Below, piece after piece: positions 42,044-60,004 of a DNA stretch of 64,000 bases. A program made the position numbers and the translations under genes. The stretch is from Boletus sp. NGJ. Its lineage: Eukaryota > Basidiomycota > Agaricomycetes > Boletales > Boletaceae. The notes beneath the pieces are model-generated. The model was not told the DNA's origin, made no database searches, and saw only the letters and a program-made list of their open reading frames with translations. Within the stretch, counting starts at the first letter, position 1. Each line of letters starts with the position of its first letter. The stretch spans positions 62,001 through 126,000 of the forward strand of contig JAGTXK010000125.1 in the NCBI GenBank assembly GCA_019096195.1, in the 5' to 3' direction.

Positions 42044-43705
42044 ATGTCCTCGACAAAATCTGAAAATGATCTACTCAACCCACGCACAACCACCTACGAA
42101 TTCATGGGCCCGTTCGGTGCCTTGCTCGTCACCCTAGGTGTACCCATCATGAGCTACCTCCTCTACTTTGGTTGCTCCGAGTCTGCTGGTGCTTGCCCAC
42201 CTTCCTACGTCCTCTCCCCTTCTCTCTTGGCTGCGCACGTACAGGAATCTGTTACCAGCGAGCAGTGGTGGGCCGGTCTCTGGGACACAGAAGCCGCGTT
42301 GATTTACTTGGCTTGGTATGCTTTCTGTGTCGTCGCGTGGGTTATCTTGCCGGGCGATTGGATCGAAGGTGTCACAATGAGAAATGGGCAGAAAAAAAAG
42401 TACAAGATCAATGGTACCCATCGCCGTTTCTACCGCATGGAAATATCATTGACTGATTGGCCCCGTGTCATACAGCGTTTTCAACTTTCCTCCTCGCTTT
42501 GGGTATCACCTCTGGCTACATCATCCGTTATGGTCCAGAGTCGTTCACCTTTCTCTATGATAAATGGCTCGGTTTCCTTACCGCCTCCCTCATCATGTCC
42601 GTCGTGCAGGGGGTGGCGGTGTATGCTGGCTCTTTCAGAAAAGGCGCGCTGCTGGCGCTCGGCGGCAACTCTGGTAACCTAATCTATGATGTCCGTTTTG
42701 ATTTCCGGGTTTCTCTTCCACTTGACACCTTTGACGCATTTTTTTCAGTTCTTCATCGGCCGCGAACTGAACCCCTCTATCGGCTCATTCGATATCAAGT
42801 CGTTCAATGAGCTCCGCCCTGGGCTCATCCTCTGGGTTCTCATTGACATAAGCATGGTCTGTGTGCAAGCCGTGAGGCGTGGTGGTTGGGAAAACGTCAC
42901 GTGGAGTATGTGGCTCGTCCTTGCCTTTCAAGGTTTCTATGTCACAGATGGGTTGTACAATGAGGTATGTATCACCTTTTCTTCCCTGTATCTGGTGTAC
43001 TGACGAATGTACAGCCTGCCATTTTCACGACCATGGACATCACGACCGATGGATTTGGATTCATGCTCGCTGTCGGCGATCTCACCTGGGTACCCTTTGT
43101 ATACTCCCTACAGGCACGTTACCTTGTCTTCAGACCTGTAGAACTCGATCTCGCAAGCACCATCGGCATTGTGGCTGTCAATGCTCTTGGTTATTGGATC
43201 TTCCGAAGCGCCAATGGGGAGAAGAATGACTTCAGAAATGGCAAGAACCCAAAGAGTGAGTGGTCACATTTTGTGACAGCCCCCGTGAGTGATGATCGGC
43301 GAAACAGACCTCAAATACTTTACGACGGAGAAGGGATCCAAATTGCTCACGTCGGGTTGGTGGGGACGATCGCGCCACCCAAACTACTTGTACGTTTCTG
43401 ATTTCTCCTTTCTGGTCGAGGTGTTGCTCATTCCGTCTTTGTTCCCTAGTGGTGACCTCATCATGGCGCTCGCATGGTCTCTCCCGACGGGATTCGAGAC
43501 TCCCATCACCTACTTTTACGTCACCTACTTCATCGTATTGCTCATTCATAGGCAGAGGAGGGATGACGAGAACTGTGAAACGAAGTGCGTATTGCATGTC
43601 CAAATCCGTCTGTCTCGTCGACTGATAGCTATTCTCAGGTATGGTAAAGACTGGGGAAAGTACAGGCAGCTCGTCCCCTACCGTATTATTCCATACGTGT
43701 ATTAA
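42044..43705 (+). CDS. ERG24: Delta(14)-sterol reductase of ergosterol synthesis
   Basis: NADPH-dependent reduction of the C-14 double bond after C-14 demethylation; multi-pass ER membrane protein. It starts [20 protein letters not shown] at 42044 and has four or more introns. One splits the codon after KYKIN near 42414, another lies near 42673-42749. Hallmarks: [86 protein letters not shown], then [20 protein letters not shown] and the C-terminus [20 protein letters not shown]. The WVPF...LQARYL segment and the short tail fit ERG24 better than ERG4. Nothing broken was seen. Confidence 0.9.
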
Positions 43706-44245
43706 GTTCTCGCGTGAATCGTGGACGATAGCCAAATGAAAGAACGAGATGTAACTCTCACACGTTGCTCTACAAACTTTTAGTGGAATGGCTACTTCCT
43801 CGAGGCGAGAAGTTGCGACTGTCACTGTTCGTGATTTGAAGCGAGTATCGATGGTTCGACATGGGGAAGACAGGTGCAGGCCAAGACGGAAATGATGGTT
43901 GTGTCTTTGCTTGATGCGATTGATGATGTAGGTTAGAGCAACGTTCGTTCGTGAGTACATACGAGTGGCACGACTGCATTACCCATTCATAAAAGCAGAA
44001 CATCCTCCTATTCTCCAATGCGACAAATCGGATGCTCACACATATCAGACCGCATCAGCAATATTTGTCCGTTCGGTGGATGAAATCGCTGCTGACTGGC
44101 TCCGCATTGATGAAATACCCCTTTTCTGATCAAAGGAGCGCCGGATGGCTTATTATAAAATAGGTCTGCTGGTACCATCACTATCGCTGGTAGCCATCGT
44201 CGCACTCGCAAGTGCTTATCCCCCACTCGCCAAAAAAAAAAAAAC

Positions 44246-45340
44246 ATGTCCGACGTCAAGATCTGGCTTGGTGCGTCGTATCAACTGCCGTCGATGTCGT
44301 TAGATATACTCATCGTACTGAAACGCTGCAGTCACCGGCGCCTCGTCCGGTTTCGGTCGCGCCATGACCGAGCATCTGCTCGCGATCGGAAACAAAGTCG
44401 TCGCCACGCTCCGCAAACCCGAGGTGCTTTCCGACCTGACAGCACGCTATCCCCCCACCCAGCTCCTCGTCGTCAAAGTGGACGTGACGAATAACGCCGA
44501 CATCACTGCAGCATTTGCGAAAGCGGAAGAGGTCTTTGGCAGAATCGACGTCGTGTTCAACAACGCGGGCGTCAGCGTCTCGGGCGAAGTCGAGTCCGTG
44601 GACGATGCGGATGCTCGGGGCATGTTCGATGTCAACTTTTGGGGTGCGGCTTGCGTGACCAAAGAAGCCGTGCGATTCTTCCGAGAAGTGAATAAACCTG
44701 TTGGGGGTAGGCTGTTCCAGGTTTCCTCCAGACTTGGCCTCGTGGGCCAGGCGGTATGTGGGTTCTATAGCGCTTCGTGAGTATGTTATAGTCCTAGCAA
44801 GGTATAACCCTGACGTTCTCGCAACAGAAAGTTTGGTAAGCCCCCGGGGGTCGATCGTCCTCGCGTGCAACGTTCATCCAGCTGTCTCTAGCTTTAGAAG
44901 GTCTCACGGAATGTCTTGCAAGCGAACTGGACCCAGCATGGAACATCAAGGTCATCCCCGCTTTCTCATTCATTCACCTCGGCCACGTTCTAATCCTGGT
45001 TCGATTGTTTGATCCCAAGGTCACGATCCTCGAACCCGGACCATACCGCACCGGGATCTTGCAGGGAAACTATCCCATTGCGCCTCAGCACCCTGCGTAC
45101 GCAAACCCGGCTCTCCGAACGTCGCAGATTCGCAAGTTCCTTTCCTCGACAGAGTTGTTCGATGGCGACGTCACGAAAGCGGCGGTCGTGATCGAGAAGT
45201 TCTCCCGACTCGAGGACGCGCCAATCCGGTTCCCGTTACATAGGAAGGTCGTGACGGCTATGAGGGACAAATCCAAGGAGCTGTTAGAGGTGGCAGAAAA
45301 GTATGAGAGTTGGACTGACGATCTCTACCATGACAAGTGA
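44246..45340 (+). CDS. Short-chain dehydrogenase/reductase (SDR), tandem copy 1
   Basis: NAD(P)-dependent oxidoreductase; substrate unknown. Exons 44246-44270, 44332-44776, 44828-44835, 44892-44950 and 45020-45340 give 285 residues in phase. Rossmann motif VTGASSGFG spans the first intron. DVTN and NNAG (structural motif) follow. The catalytic Ser is in FQVSSRLG and the Tyr-Lys pair in YSASK. The catalytic Lys is on the 8-nt third exon. PGPYRTG follows, as in classical SDRs. The 5' upstream region and the 3' flank are shared with copy 2 (46567-47668), but coding exons 2-5 and their introns are base-identical between copies. It lies downstream of ERG24 on the same strand; a sterol-related role is possible but only by position. 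Confidence 0.85.
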
Positions 45341-45659
45341 TGGACCAAGGCTCGACATTCAAGCTCGGGTCTTTTGAGCCATATCTGTTGAGGCCCGTCC
45401 CTGGAGGTATGATACTTGTACAGTAATTTTTGACGAACCTCCCACTTCCTTGTTCACCCAATGGCTCTGATATGCGTGTTGTTTACCTCGGGGTCTTGTC
45501 GGTACGTACGCTTGGGTCGTTACGAAAACCTCGTCTGGCAACTTGCCATCACGGCTCCGAGTACTGCTGTCAATAGAAACCACCGTCGTCCGACATCAAG
45601 ACCTTCCGTTGGTTCTTCCCGTCTTGTTGTCCACATATCGGGGACGGCCCTGGGGGAGC

Positions 45660-45990
45660 GCTGTAGGGCATGCACAGTAGACAATACGTACGAAGCGCCT
45701 GGCTGTATTATGAGAAGACTATTACTACAACTTCGATGTCTGCGCCGCTAGTCGCATCCACTGCTTTTGGCGACGAGGAGCTAGGCCGTACGATGATCCC
45801 CTGTAAGATTGGAGAGGACCTCGAGTGGAAACGACGCTCCTTCCGGGCATATGCAGAATCGCCCGAGGAAAGAGGAAGGCGTCCTACTCTCCGTCTGGAG
45901 AGGTATCCTTGTAAGCCATGCTGCAAGACACTGACACGTTTCACTTCAGCTGCTCTGCGGATAAAGTTGAGTGAGTTTTCCACCACATGA
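45660..45990 (-). pseudogene. Antisense SDR relic a
   Basis: Reverse complement of about 45770-45850 resembles the SDR segment LRKPEVLSDL...PTQLLVV (for example FPLEVLSNLTGD, then an in-frame stop, then LLVA). The same order, antisense, recurs after SDR copy 2 at 47990-48560, where more of the gene is left. This copy lacks the NNAG to SASK part, apparently by an internal deletion. It is a host-gene remnant with stops and no intact frame. Confidence 0.5.
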
Positions 45991-46566
45991 ACGGGATACA
46001 ACACACCAAACCAGATCACCTTGACGCCGGACATGATTACTTCTTGTTGTGCGGTAACCGGTTGATACAAGCTGCGACAATCTACGAAACCACTAGAGGG
46101 TGTCGCGCAACCTCTTGAATTTTTTTTAGATCTTTTCGAAGCAGCAAAATACTGTAGTCGCTAAGCGGAACATGACAATGGAGAACAGAGCTTATAATAT
46201 TTCCGCAATCGAGTTTGCCGATGATACATGTACATGGTCCGTTGGGGAAAGGGATATTCGATCGTAAATACATACGAGTAGTGGCACGACGATACTGTAT
46301 GATCCCTTTGTACTCTTGTTCTCCGAAGTGAAACTGGTAGTGCGCCGGATACAGTACCCAATAACAGACCGCGTCAGCAATATTTGTCCGTTCGGTGGAT
46401 GCTTTCGCTGACTGACTGGCTCCGCAGTGATGAGACACCCCTTCTCTGATCGAAGGAGCGCCGGATGGCTTATTATAAAATAGGTCTGCTGGTACCATCA
46501 CTATCGCTGGTAGCCATCGTCGCACTCGCAAGTGCTTATCCCCCACTCGCCAAAAAGAAAACAATC

Positions 46567-47668
46567 ATGTCCGACGTCAAGATCTGGCTTGGTGCGTCGT
46601 ATCAACTGCCGTCGATGTTGACGTCGCTAGATATACTCATCGTACTGAAACCGCTGCAGTCACCGGCGCCTCGTCCGGTTTCGGTCGCGCCATGACCGAG
46701 CATCTGCTCGCGATCGGAAACAAAGTCGTCGCCACGCTCCGCAAACCCGAGGTGCTTTCCGACCTGACAGCACGCTATCCCCCCACCCAGCTCCTCGTCG
46801 TCAAAGTGGACGTGACGAATAACGCCGACATCACTGCAGCATTTGCGAAAGCGGAAGAGGTCTTTGGCAGAATCGACGTCGTGTTCAACAACGCGGGCGT
46901 CAGCGTCTCGGGCGAAGTCGAGTCCGTGGACGATGCGGATGCTCGGGGCATGTTCGATGTCAACTTTTGGGGTGCGGCTTGCGTGACCAAAGAAGCCGTG
47001 CGATTCTTCCGAGAAGTGAATAAACCTGTTGGGGGTAGGCTGTTCCAGGTTTCCTCCAGACTTGGCCTCGTGGGCCAGGCGGTATGTGGGTTCTATAGCG
47101 CTTCGTGAGTATGTTATAGTCCTAGCAAGGTATAACCCTGACGTTCTCGCAACAGAAAGTTTGGTAAGCCCCCGGGGGTCGATCGTCCTCGCGTGCAACG
47201 TTCATCCAGCTGTCTCTAGCTTTAGAAGGTCTCACGGAATGTCTTGCAAGCGAACTGGACCCAGCATGGAACATCAAGGTCATCCCCGCTTTCTCATTCA
47301 TTCACCTCGGCCACGTTCTAATCCTGGTTCGATTGTTTGATCCCAAGGTCACGATCCTCGAACCCGGACCATACCGCACCGGGATCTTGCAGGGAAACTA
47401 TCCCATTGCGCCTCAGCACCCTGCGTACGCAAACCCGGCTCTCCGAACGTCGCAGATTCGCAAGTTCCTTTCCTCGACAGAGTTGTTCGATGGCGACGTC
47501 ACGAAAGCGGCGGTCGTGATCGAGAAGTTCTCCCGACTCGAGGACGCGCCAATCCGGTTCCCGTTACATAGGAAGGTCGTGACGGCTATGAGGGACAAAT
47601 CCAAGGAGCTGTTAGAGGTGGCAGAAAAGTATGAGAGTTGGACTGACGATCTCTACCATGACAAGTGA
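46567..47668 (+). CDS. Short-chain dehydrogenase/reductase (SDR), tandem copy 2
   Basis: Same 285-residue product and exon plan as copy 1, offset by 2328 bp from the end of intron 1 onward. Intron 1 differs from copy 1 by a 6-nt insertion, a 1-nt insertion and one substitution. From the last bases of intron 1 (46652) to 47764, about 96 bp past the stop, I find no base difference from 44324-45436. Upstream (about 46420-46560 against 44090-44240) and downstream of this tract the copies differ at many positions. All SDR motifs are intact, including the 8-nt exon with the catalytic Lys. Paralog substrate and expression are unknown. Confidence 0.85.
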
Positions 47669-47989
47669 TGGACCAAGGCTCGACATTCAAGCTCGGGTCT
47701 TTTGAGCCATATCTGTTGAGGCCCGTCCCTGGAGGTATGATACTTGTACAGTAATTTTTGACGAAGCTCCCACTTCCTTGTTCACCCAATGGCTCTGATA
47801 TGCGTGTTGTTTACCTCGGGGTCTTGTCGGTACGTACGCTTGGATCGTTACGAAAGCTCGACTGGCAACTTGCTATCACGGCTCCAAGTACTGCTGTCAA
47901 TAGAAACCACCATCTGACATCAAGACCTTCATTTGGTTCTTCCCGTCTTGTTGTCCACATATCGAGGACGACCCTGAGGAGCGCTGTAG

Positions 47990-48560
47990 GGCAAGCATAG
48001 TAGACAATACGTGCGAAGCGCCGTAGAACCCACAGTTCCACAAGGCCCAGCCTGGACGAGACTTGCAACCAGTCTACCTCCCTTTGACCTGTTGACCATA
48101 CAAGCCCCCCAAATGTTGTCATCCAACATTTCCTAGGCCACTGCATCGTCTACGGACGTGACATCGCGCGTGTAGGTGATGCCAGCGTTGTTGAACACGA
48201 CATCGATTCTGTCAAACGCCACCTGGACCGTATTCTGGGAAAACTATAACGATGTTTGTGCTGTGAGTCATGTCCACTTTGAAGACGAGGAGCTCGGTCG
48301 TAGGATAATATTAGAGAGGACCTCGGGTCAGCGCAAGGTGGCAACGATGCTGCTTCCAGGCTTATGCAGAAACACCCGAGGAAAGAGGAGGGTGTGGCAT
48401 CCTACTCTCCATTTGGAGGGGTATTCTGTAAGTCATGCTGTAATATACGTTTCACTTCAACTGCTCTGCGGATAAAGTTTGAGGACATACTCGGTTTTAT
48501 ATCGCGATCGAGACCAGACGAGGCGCCGGTCACTATAGTTCATGTGCAGTGAGTTTTCCA
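47990..48560 (-). pseudogene. Antisense SDR relic b
   Basis: On the minus strand the series FDRIDVVFNNAGITYTRDVT, SVDDAV, an in-frame stop, EMLDDNIWGAC and GGRLVASLVQAG follows the SDR order (FGRIDVVFNNAG..., DVNFWGAC, GGRLFQVSSRLG). The catalytic Ser and Tyr-Lys region is degraded. Toward higher coordinates it continues into the PTQLLVV-like part near 48280. It is the counterpart of relic a and clearly non-functional. It has the opposite orientation to the intact SDRs and differs strongly from them, so it descends from another paralog. Confidence 0.6.
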
Positions 48561-48880
48561 CCACATGAACGGCTGAGATACAACGCACCAAGCCAGGCCT
48601 TGGCGCCAGCTTACTCCTTGTTGTGCGGTTGATACAAATCGCGACTGTAATAACAATCCACGAACCCACTAGAGGGTGTTGCGCAACCTCTTTATAAAAA
48701 GATCTCATCAAAGCAGCAAAATAGCATGTTCACACCGTCTTCGCTAAGCGGGAACAGGACAATGTAACCACCCAGAGAATAGAGCTATACCTCCGCAACA
48801 ATCGAGATTGCCGGTGACACATGGTCCGTTGATATTCGGAAATGGTGTGGCTACATTCATAATGAGTACATTCTCGAGAT

Positions 48881-50197
48881 TCATGACGATTCAGTTTCAA
48901 TCGACTTGAGTACCCTCACCAATCTTTCCTTTCTTAGTGGTATCCAAAGGGTATCTCCGCTACCCCCGCCAGCAGTACCAACAAGGACCAAGCCATGGTC
49001 CTTAAACTCGCCGAGTAAAGCCCTCAATGCCGTGTCGCTCGTTGCGACGAAATGCTCTCTTGCGAGGGAGAATAGCGCATCATAGTTGAGTCCGAACTGC
49101 GCCATGTCAGTAGGAGCCGGGGCGTCGGAGCCCGTGACTGCAACTGAGGCAGCTTCGGCGTTTGCAAGTTGTCTCGTGCCGAGAAGGATAAAGAGCTTCT
49201 TAGCCTTGGAAGTGACGGCAGCGAGGACGTGGGCGACCGCGGTCTCCGTGAGGGGCGCACCAGCGCCGGCAGTAGCTGTAGTTGCAAGGGCCGAGCGAGC
49301 ACCAGTCGAGGCGTATGATGCACCAGCGATGGAGGAACGGTCTGCAAACGAGAGCTCTGTGTCGTAGGGCGTGAGGGTGGTCAGGTCATGCCAGAGGAAA
49401 GTATATCCACGCTTCGGGGAGGTGGTGTGCCCGTTCACGGAGGAGAGGGGCGTAGCGGTATCACTGAGCTGAACCTTGCGTGCGAGGAGCTCAGAGGCAG
49501 ACCAGAGGAGGGGAGAGCCGAGTCTGTCCACGGATGCAACAAGGTGAATGTTGGGAGAGATGGCGAGGAGGGAGAGCGCGTTTTTCACTTTTTGAGCACG
49601 CATGGGTGGAGCATCGATGTTGTGTACAACGAGGTATAGGCGACGCGTGCGCGGCGCGTCGGTGGCGGAGAAAAAGGAGCAAATGCGGCGTATCTGCGCG
49701 TCCATGTTGGTAGTGGCAGCGTTGGCGAGGCTGGGGACGCGCTCTATGGAGGCAAGCACGTCTTTGAGGGAGGTGTTGGGGTGGTAGCCGTTCACGACGA
49801 CGACGTGGCCGCGGTGAGCGAGCTCTTTGGACGCGAAGTCGTTGAGGACCGCGCGCTTTGAGCCGAAGCCGTAGAAAACGAGGTTAAAACCCTGGTCGAG
49901 CTCGTGGGCGTAGCGGCGGAACGCAGTACGGGCGTCGTGGTTACCAGACCAACGCGTGCTGGGCCGTGCATCGGCAGTTCGGGCATCGTAGGCGGCGATG
50001 GTGTCGTTGTACTCATGCTGGGTGAGTGGAAGGACGCGTGCAGAGAAGACATTGGCAGAGGTGCGGGCGCGGGATGCGGCGTGGACAAAGTAGGCGTTAA
50101 AGGCGGTGCGGATGTGCTGTACGTCAGCGTTGGCGTCGTTGAGGACGTCGAGCAAATGGGTCTGGTCGTTGTCAGAGACGTCGGTGTCAGTGTCCAT
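48881..50197 (-). CDS. ORC2: Origin recognition complex subunit 2
   Basis: Part of the six-subunit complex that marks replication origins and loads MCM. It is a single exon of 438 residues. After an acidic start it has FRRYAHELDQGFNLVFYGFG followed by SKRAVLNDFA, the ORC2 signature (LLFYGFGSK). Then come GHVVVVNGYHPN, LYLVVHNIDAPPMR, NIHLVASVDRLGSPLLW and YTFLWHDLTTLTPYDTEL. The C-terminal winged-helix region ends LWIPLRKERLVRVLKSIE. It is short for ORC2, since the disordered N-terminal half found in many fungi is nearly absent. It is divergent from the eEF1B-gamma gene with 110 bp between start codons. Confidence 0.9.
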   Translation of the reverse strand: MDTDTDVSDNDQTHLLDVLNDANADVQHIRTAFNAYFVHAASRARTSANVFSARVLPLTQHEYNDTIAAYDARTADARPSTRWSGNHDARTAFRRYAHELDQGFNLVFYGFGSKRAVLNDFASKELAHRGHVVVVNGYHPNTSLKDVLASIERVPSLANAATTNMDAQIRRICSFFSATDAPRTRRLYLVVHNIDAPPMRAQKVKNALSLLAISPNIHLVASVDRLGSPLLWSASELLARKVQLSDTATPLSSVNGHTTSPKRGYTFLWHDLTTLTPYDTELSFADRSSIAGASYASTGARSALATTATAGAGAPLTETAVAHVLAAVTSKAKKLFILLGTRQLANAEAASVAVTGSDAPAPTDMAQFGLNYDALFSLAREHFVATSDTALRALLGEFKDHGLVLVGTAGGGSGDTLWIPLRKERLVRVLKSIETESS

Positions 50198-53343: not shown

Positions 53344-54333
53344 TGTTGTGAGCGATCGATGGCGAAGGATACGAGCGAGATGAACTAAGATGGATATAGA
53401 GTGAAGTGTACGAGCGTAAAAGAGTACTGTCTCACCTGAGTCTAAGCGTAGTTCGAAACTTCGAGGGAACGAACTGAGGTGCGCTATCATGAGGAATGTA
53501 CTTAAACAGTCCTCGGGCCAGGTAAGAACAAATATCAGTTGATCAAGGATATGTCAAGATGAAACATGCCAGATTGAACGTGTGCGGCGCCGAGACTTGG
53601 GTGGTCATTTCCAGATCGGGCAAGCCACGCAGATCACTAAGACTCGTAACCGATTAGTCAGCACCCTCGCTCAGGTTTCAGATCTCAGACGTGGTCTTGC
53701 TTCCAGAGTACTCACTGCGTGTTACCCCCTGAACAGGCTTGTGTCGAGGGTCTACAAGTGCCTCTTGACATCCATTCGAGTCAGTGTTGCAGCCAGACGT
53801 CCTGCTTGGAGAAGGTGTTCTCGCCAGTGGCGCTGGGGCACTAGGTAATGGGTAGGGAGGTACTTTGTTCACCCTACTTCACTCCACCCATCAGACTCAC
53901 AGCGCCGTTGTGGTCCTACCTTCATCTTGCATTGCCGCAGCTCCAGAGTTTGGGCTATTTTCTGCGTCAGGCTCTCAATGCCTGCAAAAGGGTATTCACC
54001 TTTACCGAATTGTCTACATCCCCGCTTCACAACTCGCTTATATCTTACGAAGGGGTATTGGCCAGCGCAGCCAATCAGTCAAAGCTACCTTCTTCAACTA
54101 CATTATATCCACCAGCAGGATCCCCAGCTAGCCGAGTGTGGCTGTGCTTTCGCTACTTGATTCACCGCAACATTGTCTTTGGCTCGACATTTTCTCGCGG
54201 GCAACACAAAATTTCGCGCAAATATTCCCATCATGGCTATCTATAACTATCTGTTTCCAGGACCGCCGTTTTGTGGATTGTTGAGCTGTTCCCCATTTTC
54301 TCATCGCTAGGAGCATTTGCACTGCACAGTAGG
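53344..54333. other. Intergenic; carries the 5' part of a duplicated block
   Basis: Segments near 53650-53760 (around CGATTAGTCAGCACC and AGGCTTGTGTCGAGGGTCT) recur at 58070-58220 before the second ICMT gene. The stretch 54190-54333 resembles 58485-58629. No independent gene was recognised. Confidence 0.5.
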
Positions 54334-55183
54334 ATGGCGGCAGCGAGACTGTTCCTTCTCCTTGTCACGGCGATCGCTCAACAGTATGCGGTTACATCGC
54401 CAAATGCTCGACCCCCTTCCGAGGAACTACGCGAACAACGCGGCGCAGAACATAAGATGCCTTTAACCATTGCAATCATGAAAGTGCGTATCCGAGTCAC
54501 CATCTGAACTTTTGCATGCTGACTAGATCCCACCCATTTCCTGAACGTAGATTTGTATATGGTCCCGGACATTCCTCGAAGGCTTAGTCCTCTTCGCACT
54601 GAGCGGTCACTGTCCGCCCACTCTCGCCCACTCACTCCTCCACTTCATGCTACCCACCTCTCTCTCATCAGACCCCTCCGCCACCACGCTCACCACACTC
54701 ACTGCCCTCACCCCCACCTTCCTCACCGGCGTCCTCGTCAGTCTCGCTGGTAGTCTCCTCCGCGGACACTGTTACCATATCCTCGGCAAACGCTTTACCT
54801 ATGAACTCAGTATCCGCCCCTCCCACACGCTCGTTACGGAAGGCGTGTACGGGGTCGTACGGCACCCGAGTTATACGGCTGCTCTGATGGTCGCGGTGGG
54901 GTGGTTGCTCTGTGTGTCCGATCGACACGGATCAGTCATTGCCGTGTGTGTGGGATGGCTTCAGGCGTTCGGTGGGAACGGAAGTCAAAGTGGGTACGGG
55001 GATTGGGACGCAATGCTGACTGGCGTGTTGGCGTGCGTGTGGGCGACCGTGTTGTGCCTCCTGTGCTTGGTGGCATACAAGCGGATCACCAAAGAGGACT
55101 CAATGCTCGAAAAGAACTTTGGGGAGGAGTGGCGGGCATGGGCGACGAGGGTACCTTATCGCATGGTCCCTGGTGTATATTGA
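54334..55183 (+). CDS. Isoprenylcysteine carboxyl methyltransferase-like protein, copy 1
   Basis: Predicted ER-membrane enzyme that methylates the C-terminal farnesylated or geranylgeranylated Cys of CaaX proteins (Ste14 family). Exons 54334-54483 and 54551-55183 give 260 residues. An N-terminal signal-like helix (MAAARLFLLLVTAIAQQYAV) is followed by a second hydrophobic region and the catalytic core. The core reads GTL-like TGVLVSLAGSLLRGHCYHIL, GKRFTYELSI, HTLVTEGVYGVVRHPSYTAA (the RHPSY motif for SAM binding), and the C-terminus EEWRAWATRVPYRMVPGVY. These match the ICMT/PEMT pattern. It is a paralog of the gene at 58630-59470. It may be a lineage-specific relative rather than the true STE14, because the RHPxY context is right but the N-terminal half is short. 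Confidence 0.75.
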
Positions 55184-55832
55184 ACGGTCTTCAGTCTGAT
55201 GTGGTGTTAGAAGGACAACACGCCAATACATCAATTTTTCAAGACAACAACTCATCCGTGAGTCGTTGAGTGTTGGTCAATATAATTCCTATCCATCAAA
55301 GATTGCTGTAAGACACTCCAGAACATGTTTATGGGCTTTGTACCTTGTTGAACTGAACAGAATTCTGACTTGAACCTGAGTAGCAGCTCAATATTAACGT
55401 TCAGCACCTGGGCGAGCCTAAACCCATTCTAGTAGGGTCTGTTGCACTGTCACGCCAGGGTCACTGTACAAACCTTCAAGCAACTTGGCTTTTTTTAAAG
55501 AACTTTATTCACCAACGTCAATCTCGCTGACACGTCACTTGTATATAGGCCATGCCGCCTTTCGGAGATGTCTTTCCATTCGCCCCATTCCCTCCGGCGA
55601 TGTGACCTCGCAGACACTGGAGGTTGAAAGCACATTTGACAATGTTCGCGCTGTTCTTCATGCGGGCAATGAGTGCCGATGTGTGACCCGAAGGCTCAGG
55701 TACTTGACAGGCTAACACGCATCACACTTTGATAAATTCAAGTACGTATTCGCCGGTGAGGGTATAAGAAAGGCTCTAGGTGGTCGCTAATTCCATTCCT
55801 TCCTTCACTTGGATAATAGTATCGTCGAGTCT

Positions 55833-57810: not shown

Positions 57811-58629
57811 CACGTTTGTTGTACGTGACTCTCGATACTGTACGTTAGCCATGCGACAAGCAAGGTTACCTTTCTTTCCCAAACGCATATTTTCTAGTTG
57901 CCGTGGATACTGATTGAAGATGTTTTTACATACATAAAGTCATTTGTAACATGAGCCACGGGAAACGGTCGGTTATTCTAGAGAACCGTCACGGCCAAGT
58001 TGTTGTTTGACGTGGTTGCTGGGTAGACGAGACGGAATATCATCTCGGTCCATCGGTTGTTGCAGACGTCGTAGCGGATTAGTCAGCACGACTAAGGAGC
58101 TAGTAAGCCCGACTCGTCTGCTCTGTCAGGCCCGAGTGACCGCAATTCAGATAGGTCTCGGACGTGGCCCTATGTCCATGTGTTGGCCCCTGACCAGGCT
58201 TGTGTCGAGGGTCTCACTTTGACATGGCTCCCCCACTCGAATCATTGTTGCACAGGCCGTCTTGCCTGAACAGGTCTCGCCACTACTACTAGTAGGTAGG
58301 GAGGTGTGTTCATTGACTCTGCACTTTGTTAACTCTCCACCACTCCGCCCATTTACTGGCCTTCAGAGAGAAGCATGACGAGGCTTACAGTGCCGTCGGT
58401 ATTCCGATCATATTATACACTAGCAGCAGGGACATTGATTGGCCATGCACGCAACTGACCACCAGATTGCCTCTGACGCGATATTTTCTCGCGGCGACCC
58501 AGATTTCGCGTATGTGTTCCCATCATGTCTATCAATAACTATTTGTCTCCAGGATCGCATTTTAGACTGGATTGTCGAGTTTTTTTTCCCATCTTTTCAT
58601 CTCTGAGGGCATTTGCACCACACACTAGG
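57811..58629. other. 5' flank of ICMT copy 2, duplicated relative to copy 1
   Basis: It includes the block near 58070-58220 with AGGCTTGTGTCGAGGGTCT, shared with 53640-53760, and the stretch just before the ATG shared with 54190-54333. No gene was recognised. Confidence 0.5.
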
Positions 58630-59470
58630 ATGGCGACAGCCAGATTGTTCCTTCTCCTTGTCACGGCGATCGCTCAACAGTATGCGGTTACATCGCCAAA
58701 TGGCCAGCCCCCTTCCGGGGAGTTACGCGAACAACCCGGCGCAGAAAATAAGATACGCACAATTGTCACAATCATGAGAGTGCGTGTCCGAGTCGCCATC
58801 TGAACTTTTGCATGCTGACTAGATCCCACCCATCTCCTGGATATAGATTTGTATATGGTCCCGGGCATTCCTCGAAGGTTTGGTTCTCTTCGCATTGAGC
58901 GGTCACTGTCCACCCACCATCGCCCGCCCTCTCCTCCACTTCATGCTACCCACTTCCCTCTCATCAGACCCCACCACCACATTCACTACACTCACTGCCC
59001 TCACCCCCACCTTCCTCACCGGCGTCCTCGTCAGTCTCGCTGGTAGTCTCCTCCGCGGACACTGTTACCATATCCTCGGCAAACGCTTTACCTATGAGCT
59101 CAGTATCCGCTCCTCCCACACGCTCGTTACGAACGGCGTGTACGGGCTCATACGGCACCCGAGTTATACGGCTCTCCTGGTGGTCGCGGTGGGGTGGCTG
59201 TTCTGTGTGTCCGATCGACAGGGATCAATCGTTGCCGTGTGTGTTGGATGGGCTCAGGCGTTCGGTGGTAATGCGGGTCAAAGTGGTAATGGAAACGCAA
59301 ATCTGACTGGCGTGTTGGCGTGCGTGTGGGTGACGGTGTTGGGCCTGGCGTGCCTGATGGTACACATCCGGATGACCCAGGAGGACTTGATGCTCTCAAA
59401 TAACTTCGGGGAGGAGTGGCGGGCGTGGGCGACGAGGGTACCTTACCGCTTGGTCCCTGGTGTATATTGA
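58630..59470 (+). CDS. Isoprenylcysteine carboxyl methyltransferase-like protein, copy 2
   Basis: Exons 58630-58779 and 58847-59470 give 257 residues, with the intron in the same place as copy 1. It has the same leader (MATARLFLLLVTAIAQQYAV), the same core TGVLVSLAGSLLRGHCYHIL, GKRFTYELSI, HTLVTNGVYGLIRHPSYTAL, and the C-terminus EEWRAWATRVPYRLVPGVY. Differences from copy 1 cluster in the loop after FGGN and in the N-terminal linker, while motifs are conserved. That suggests both copies are under constraint. The duplicated block reaches about 700 bp upstream of each gene. Confidence 0.75.
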
Positions 59471-60004
59471 ACGGTTTCCGCGTCAAAGCGGCAGTGTTCA
59501 AAGGACGACACATCAACATTTGCACCATCTTTCAAGACAAGAAACCCTCTGGCCGTGTTGCGGTGTGCTGACTGTCAGCTGGCGGTAGACCGTATGTACA
59601 TGGTAGGATCTGTGGATTTGGCCGACCAGCTATGGATTTTATACTGCATGGATTTCAATCATGACGGTGAAAAGGAGAGACTCTAACGGTCAGCTATTCC
59701 GGAAAAATCGTCTCGTATTTTAAAATTTCAACTGCCAGTGAATCGATAGCGGCGAACAGGAGTAACTCGGAGACGAAGAAACCACCGTCTCTGACTTGTC
59801 TCTGGCCCAAAAAAACGGGGGTCTGGCGTGGTCTCCCGGAATCTCCAGAAAACGATCTCTGGAGACTTTCCCAGTGCCTTCATCGCAAATTGGCTTGAAG
59901 TTGGTCGCTCTGCCAGAGGACGCGCAGCGATGGCAACTTTTGATCCTATGTTATACGATGGAGGGCTGTTTGACAGGTCACGGAATAAAGACGATGTATG
60001 ATAA

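Follow-up and report, generated by a model that had tools for sequence, protein, structure and literature searches.

Two short-chain dehydrogenase (SDR) genes of Boletus sp. NGJ, arranged as direct tandem copies spaced about 2.3 kb apart, share an identical tract of 1114 bp inside a tandem duplication whose other parts have diverged. Interlocus gene conversion is, with high confidence, the best explanation for this exact core in an older, diverged duplication. The sequence-only reading that prompted the analysis had described an old tandem duplication, since diverged, around a core made uniform more recently, and the measurements bear it out: the core has 0 changes at about 480 silent sites, while the sequence immediately beside it (the shoulders) differs by 5% and the outer right flank by about 14% with many gaps. 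All positions below refer to the window, the whole stretch of 64,000 nucleotides that was analysed, corresponding to positions 62001-126000 of contig C10 (314.7 kb) in an assembly of 32.8 Mb and 141 contigs.

The identical tract and the genes that carry it

In an exact comparison, 44324-45437 in copy A and 46652-47765 in copy B, both on the plus strand, have 0 differences over 1114 bp. The identity had been proposed for 44324-45436 and 46652-47764, where 0 differences were indeed counted in 1113 bases; it runs one base farther, to 45437 and 47765. Set against the gene models, the tract begins 8 bases before intron 1 ends, takes in exons 2-5 with introns 2-4, and runs on for 97 bp beyond the stop codon. 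Among the best-scoring candidates of a genome search, the tract sequence occurs at full length in only two places in the assembly, accompanied by weak matches to a decayed relic described below and to a paralogue on contig C38; no donor elsewhere in the genome and no third full-length copy was found among these candidates. The run of identity is longer than chance allows given the divergence of the pair, as is characteristic of an interlocus gene conversion tract. When the 36 difference events of the alignable block 44042-45699 were placed at random over that block 200,000 times, a run of 1114 was reached 0 times, and the largest run obtained was 628.

Gene models were predicted from splice sites and SDR motifs, from the sequence alone and without transcripts. 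Copy A (44246-45340, plus strand) has exons at 44246-44270, 44332-44776, 44828-44835, 44892-44950 and 45020-45340, and copy B (46567-47668, plus strand) has exons at 46567-46591, 46660-47104, 47156-47163, 47220-47278 and 47348-47668. The two sets of five exons specify an identical predicted protein of 285 amino acids, matched almost end to end by domain model PF00106 (E 4e-41; 141 bits, against a curated cut-off of 26.6), and its closest sequence among solved structures is 3m1a, a putative dehydrogenase (E 1e-38). Classical SDRs carry the cofactor motif TGxxxGxG and the catalytic motif YxxxK; the translation contains TGASSGFG as the cofactor motif, NNAG, the Ser, and YSASK in the YxxxK position. 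Both copies therefore probably encode a classical short-chain dehydrogenase. On one side of the pair is a gene of the ERG4/ERG24 family, with the end of its last matching open frame at 43705; on the other is ORC2, encoded on the opposite strand and with a 3' end at 48881. A gene for elongation factor 1 gamma is also among the neighbours. Taken with the short introns and the size of the genome, these neighbours suit a fungus, perhaps a basidiomycete. Within the window, no RNA family attained the gathering score set for it.

The third exon of each model, predicted at 44828-44835 and 47156-47163, is just 8 nt in length and includes the codon for the catalytic Lys in YxxxK. Five of six paralogues (C129a, C129b, C38, C103a and C103b) offer a readable exon of equal size in the equivalent place, bordered by GT/AG introns; in the plus-strand gene on contig C6, the intron that follows the 8-nt exon position is absent. 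This comparison drew on stretches L043, L044, L010, L042 and L041, with anchors picked by eye and without transcripts. PMC1184071 reports microexons from P450 genes of Phanerochaete.

Stepwise divergence of the duplicated unit

Flanks as identical as the tract itself had been named as the outcome that would speak against conversion. What the alignments gave is a fall in steps, from 100% in the core to about 95% in the shoulders (5% substitutions) and then to about 86%, with many gaps, outside them on the right. The left shoulder, 44042-44323 in copy A aligned to 46361-46651 in copy B, covers the upstream region, exon 1 and most of intron 1, and contains 12 substitutions and 5 indel events. The right shoulder, 45438-45699 aligned to 47766-48022, contains 15 substitutions and 4 indel events. 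Across the whole block, 44042-45699 against 46361-48022, there are thus 27 substitutions and 9 indel events, and all 36 fall within the 544 bp of shoulders, with 0 in the core. Farther to the right, 45734-46230 is homologous to 48250-48823 (plus strand in each case), strongly diverged at 69-72% identity with gaps included; two BLASTN stretches there (E 4e-37 and 2e-34) comprise 65 mismatches in 452 ungapped columns, or about 86% ungapped identity, together with 98 gap columns. The shoulders are less diverged than this outer right flank (Fisher p 5e-7).

Leftward of 44042, the sole recognisable patch is one of 31 bp, 43944-43974 against 46257-46290 (z 9.5), and a tested stretch beyond this patch showed no homology relative to Markov-generated controls (z -0.9). 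Homology of the flanks was judged by BLASTN and by such controls; identities from cheap-gap global alignments were not taken as evidence of it, because stretches lacking BLASTN support also reach 72-80% ungapped identity by that method. The flanks are homologous yet more diverged than the core on both sides, as a conversion tract would leave them, with the outer left represented by the 31-bp patch only. Because the outer flank is strongly diverged, the tandem duplication is judged to be old.

Diverged flanks and sharp edges had both been claimed for the tract, and each claim needs some adjustment. The flanks do differ on both sides, with 36 shoulder events against none in the core, but they do so in two steps rather than one. 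The tract is bounded on both sides as well, but its right edge is softer than described, for a single substitution at 45438 is followed by 77 further identical bases. Just beyond the left edge, intron 1 is 61 bp long in copy A (44271-44331) and 68 bp in copy B (46592-46659), a difference of 7 inserted bases plus one substitution. The two insertions and one substitution noted there beforehand are recovered by eye, as a 6-bp insertion, a 1-bp insertion and one substitution, where script alignments instead split the 6-bp insertion and the substitution into two 3-bp insertions.

The intron 1 insertion in copy B also creates the word TGACGTC at 46619-46625, with the left edge of the tract about 27 bp away. 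We take this word to resemble the fission yeast hotspot motif for recombination of CRE/M26 type, although a word so short should turn up frequently by chance.

An inverted relic of an SDR gene lies downstream of both live copies. That of unit B, on the minus strand at 48104-48605, is decayed, with internal stop codons, and consists of two pieces, 48104-48307 and 48481-48605, each at 73% identity, the first to exon 2 and the second to the region of exon 1 and exon 2. The relic is far shorter in unit A, where a remnant on the minus strand at 45995-46049 matches the start of the SDR gene at 78% over 55 bp. Since unit A retains this small piece, the relic probably predates duplication of the unit, part of it having later been lost from unit A. 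The relic is closer to the SDR gene of contig C10 than to the other paralogues compared; at about 73% identity to the live genes, it has escaped homogenisation with them.

Other pairs in the genome and alternative explanations

A protein search returned 22 matches, and seven further stretches around matches were taken for comparison; three of these, L045-L047, had weak partial matches only and were left aside. The SDR pair on contig C6 is divergent and inverted (stretch L041, 3218-4251 and 5861-6909), and 90.8% identical. It contains a 216-bp identical run inside a 276-bp stretch with one difference, a run reached in 0 of 100,000 permutations. The 276-bp stretch starts in intron 1 and spans slightly over the first half of exon 2. 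In its coding part, one of 63.3 synonymous sites differs, whereas outside the tract, over 170 codons from the remainder of exon 2 and from the last exon (the short middle exon being left out), dS is 0.29 and dN 0.058; the synonymous contrast between inside and outside is significant (Fisher p 3e-5). The C6 pair therefore has a smaller, conversion-like tract of its own.

Two other comparisons behave differently. The C38 gene and the two C129 genes, on different contigs, are 90% identical over 1.5 kb, an overall divergence about that of the C6 pair, and they show no over-long run: the longest, 51 and 64 bp, were reached in 40,726 and 17,884 of 50,000 permutations. The C129 pair itself consists of inverted 3-kb repeats, each with an SDR gene (L043, 3734-6723; L044, 2834-5826), with about 22 kb between them. 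These repeats are 98.7% identical over 2994 bp, their 36 difference events are evenly spread, and no over-long run was found, the longest being reached in 10,380 of 100,000 permutations. The C129 pair is a recent segmental duplication with uniform identity. No DNA-level match was found between the genes of the C103 tandem pair.

Outside the SDR family, the window also contains a tandem pair of ICMT-family methyltransferase genes (54172-55192 and 58466-59478, 86% identical). This pair has a 110-bp identical run, reached in 3 of 100,000 permutations, which may represent a small conversion tract or sequence constraint. Besides copies A and B, the permutation tests thus found an over-long run in two of five comparisons (C6 and ICMT) and none in three (C129, and C38 against each C129 gene).

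These comparisons bear on the alternatives to conversion. The one that survives best, though we regard it as improbable, is an assembly artefact in which the assembler gave both places a single consensus and so hid slight differences between the two cores. An exact repeat of 1.1 kb is what a graph assembler would presumably place twice. The same assembly, however, keeps 36 evenly spread difference events in the 3-kb inverted C129 pair at 98.7% identity; it retains differences of about 1%, which argues against flattening to a consensus. At the SDR locus itself, shoulder differences 77 and 104 identical bases apart were retained, and the locus is interior to its 314.7-kb contig, in a window without any N.

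Somewhat less probable still is unequal crossing-over in the tandem array, by which a transient third copy would have arisen and then been lost, leaving a shared core. The copies stand about 2.3 kb apart as direct tandem repeats, and such exchange occurs in arrays of this kind. A single crossover, however, leaves identity running outward on one side, and the core here is bounded on both, so that two well-placed exchanges would be needed; conversion is favoured over one unequal crossover for this reason. In addition, no third full-length copy was seen among the best-scoring candidates from the assembly, and the C6 tract sits in an inverted pair, where this route works differently.

Silent positions decide the next alternative. 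Homogenisation of copies A and B extends to silent sites and introns, as it would under conversion. The approximately 480 silent sites of the core (about 200 at synonymous positions, 184 in introns and 97 beyond the stop codon) show 0 changes, where 69 would be expected at the outer rate (P of none about 4e-33) and 24 at the shoulder rate (P about 2e-11), the latter pair of figures being somewhat generous because the shoulder rate comes from stretches picked for differing. That purifying selection alone held the genes identical while the flanks drifted is accordingly rejected as extremely unlikely: the enzyme family is conserved and the motifs of the protein are intact, but introns 2-4, the synonymous sites and the 97 bp after the stop are equally identical, and pairs from this family that are about 90% identical carry differences throughout (C38 and C129) or outside the tract (C6, dS 0.29). 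A single recent duplication is likewise rejected, for divergence in both shoulders and in the outer right flank far exceeds that of the core, as had been argued from the sequence beforehand, and the recent duplication on C129 looks uniform.

Proposed history and comparison with known systems

Under interlocus gene conversion, a unit of about 2.3-2.5 kb, comprising the SDR gene and the inverted, decaying SDR relic, would have undergone an ancient tandem duplication, after which its parts would have drifted. Later homologous recombination between the direct repeats would have repaired a break in one gene off the other, and the repair would have replaced at least 1.1 kb of the broken gene with sequence from its partner, with the outer flanks untouched. 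An earlier, wider exchange of about 1.66 kb would probably have produced the intermediate shoulders. Those shoulders suggest at least one such exchange, a suggestion weakened in that the shoulders, which consist of upstream and 3' sequence, may be partly constrained. Since introns 2-4 are retained and identical, the copied template would have been genomic DNA, and cDNA is excluded. Taken together, we infer a non-reciprocal mechanism, two or more rounds, and an event in the organism rather than in the assembly.

Tract length invites a further qualification. According to PMC3924818, interlocus conversion tracts in yeast average 200-500 bp, and overlapping conversions in one direction resemble a single long tract. 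On these two grounds, the 1.1-kb tract may be a composite of several overlapping events.

A broader scenario, which we put forward tentatively and think unlikely as a whole, is that concerted evolution recurs in the SDR family: live pairs in close linkage, direct (C10) as well as inverted (C6), would be converted repeatedly over the cofactor-binding exon and beyond, the decayed relic and the unlinked paralogues would escape, and converted alleles would be retained because selection favours dosage or a constant enzyme. The process of conversion is already known, and copies A and B are a fresh, clear instance of it that leaves knowledge of the process unchanged. Among the records listed by literature searches on gene conversion, titles and the openings of abstracts yielded no report on conversion between fungal SDR genes. 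The value of the locus is as a clean, bounded case of old tandem paralogues recently converted in a filamentous fungus, set beside three kinds of control within one genome: a pair whose tract is smaller, an unlinked pair of equal divergence that has no tract, and a uniform recent duplication. Dating such duplicates by their genes alone would make them look far too young.

As enzymes, the predicted products resemble classical SDRs (PF00106) in their TGASSGFG, NNAG, Ser and YxxxK elements and in the near-complete domain match, but differ from typical members in that the catalytic Lys sits in a predicted 8-nt exon. As a pair of loci, copies A and B share with a recent segmental duplication, exemplified by the C129 pair, high identity between two SDR loci; the C129 duplication, however, is uniform over 3 kb with abrupt ends, whereas in copies A and B identity drops stepwise inside a homologous unit. 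The closest likeness is to interlocus (ectopic) conversion between tandem paralogues, of the sort that GENECONV-type tests detect, with an unusually long identical run in a more diverged alignment that includes silent sites and is bounded on both sides. The tract is longer than the 200-500 bp averages that PMC3924818 gives for yeast, and it departs from standard interlocus conversion in two further respects: identity is layered, with intermediate shoulders, and the inverted relic within the unit has escaped.
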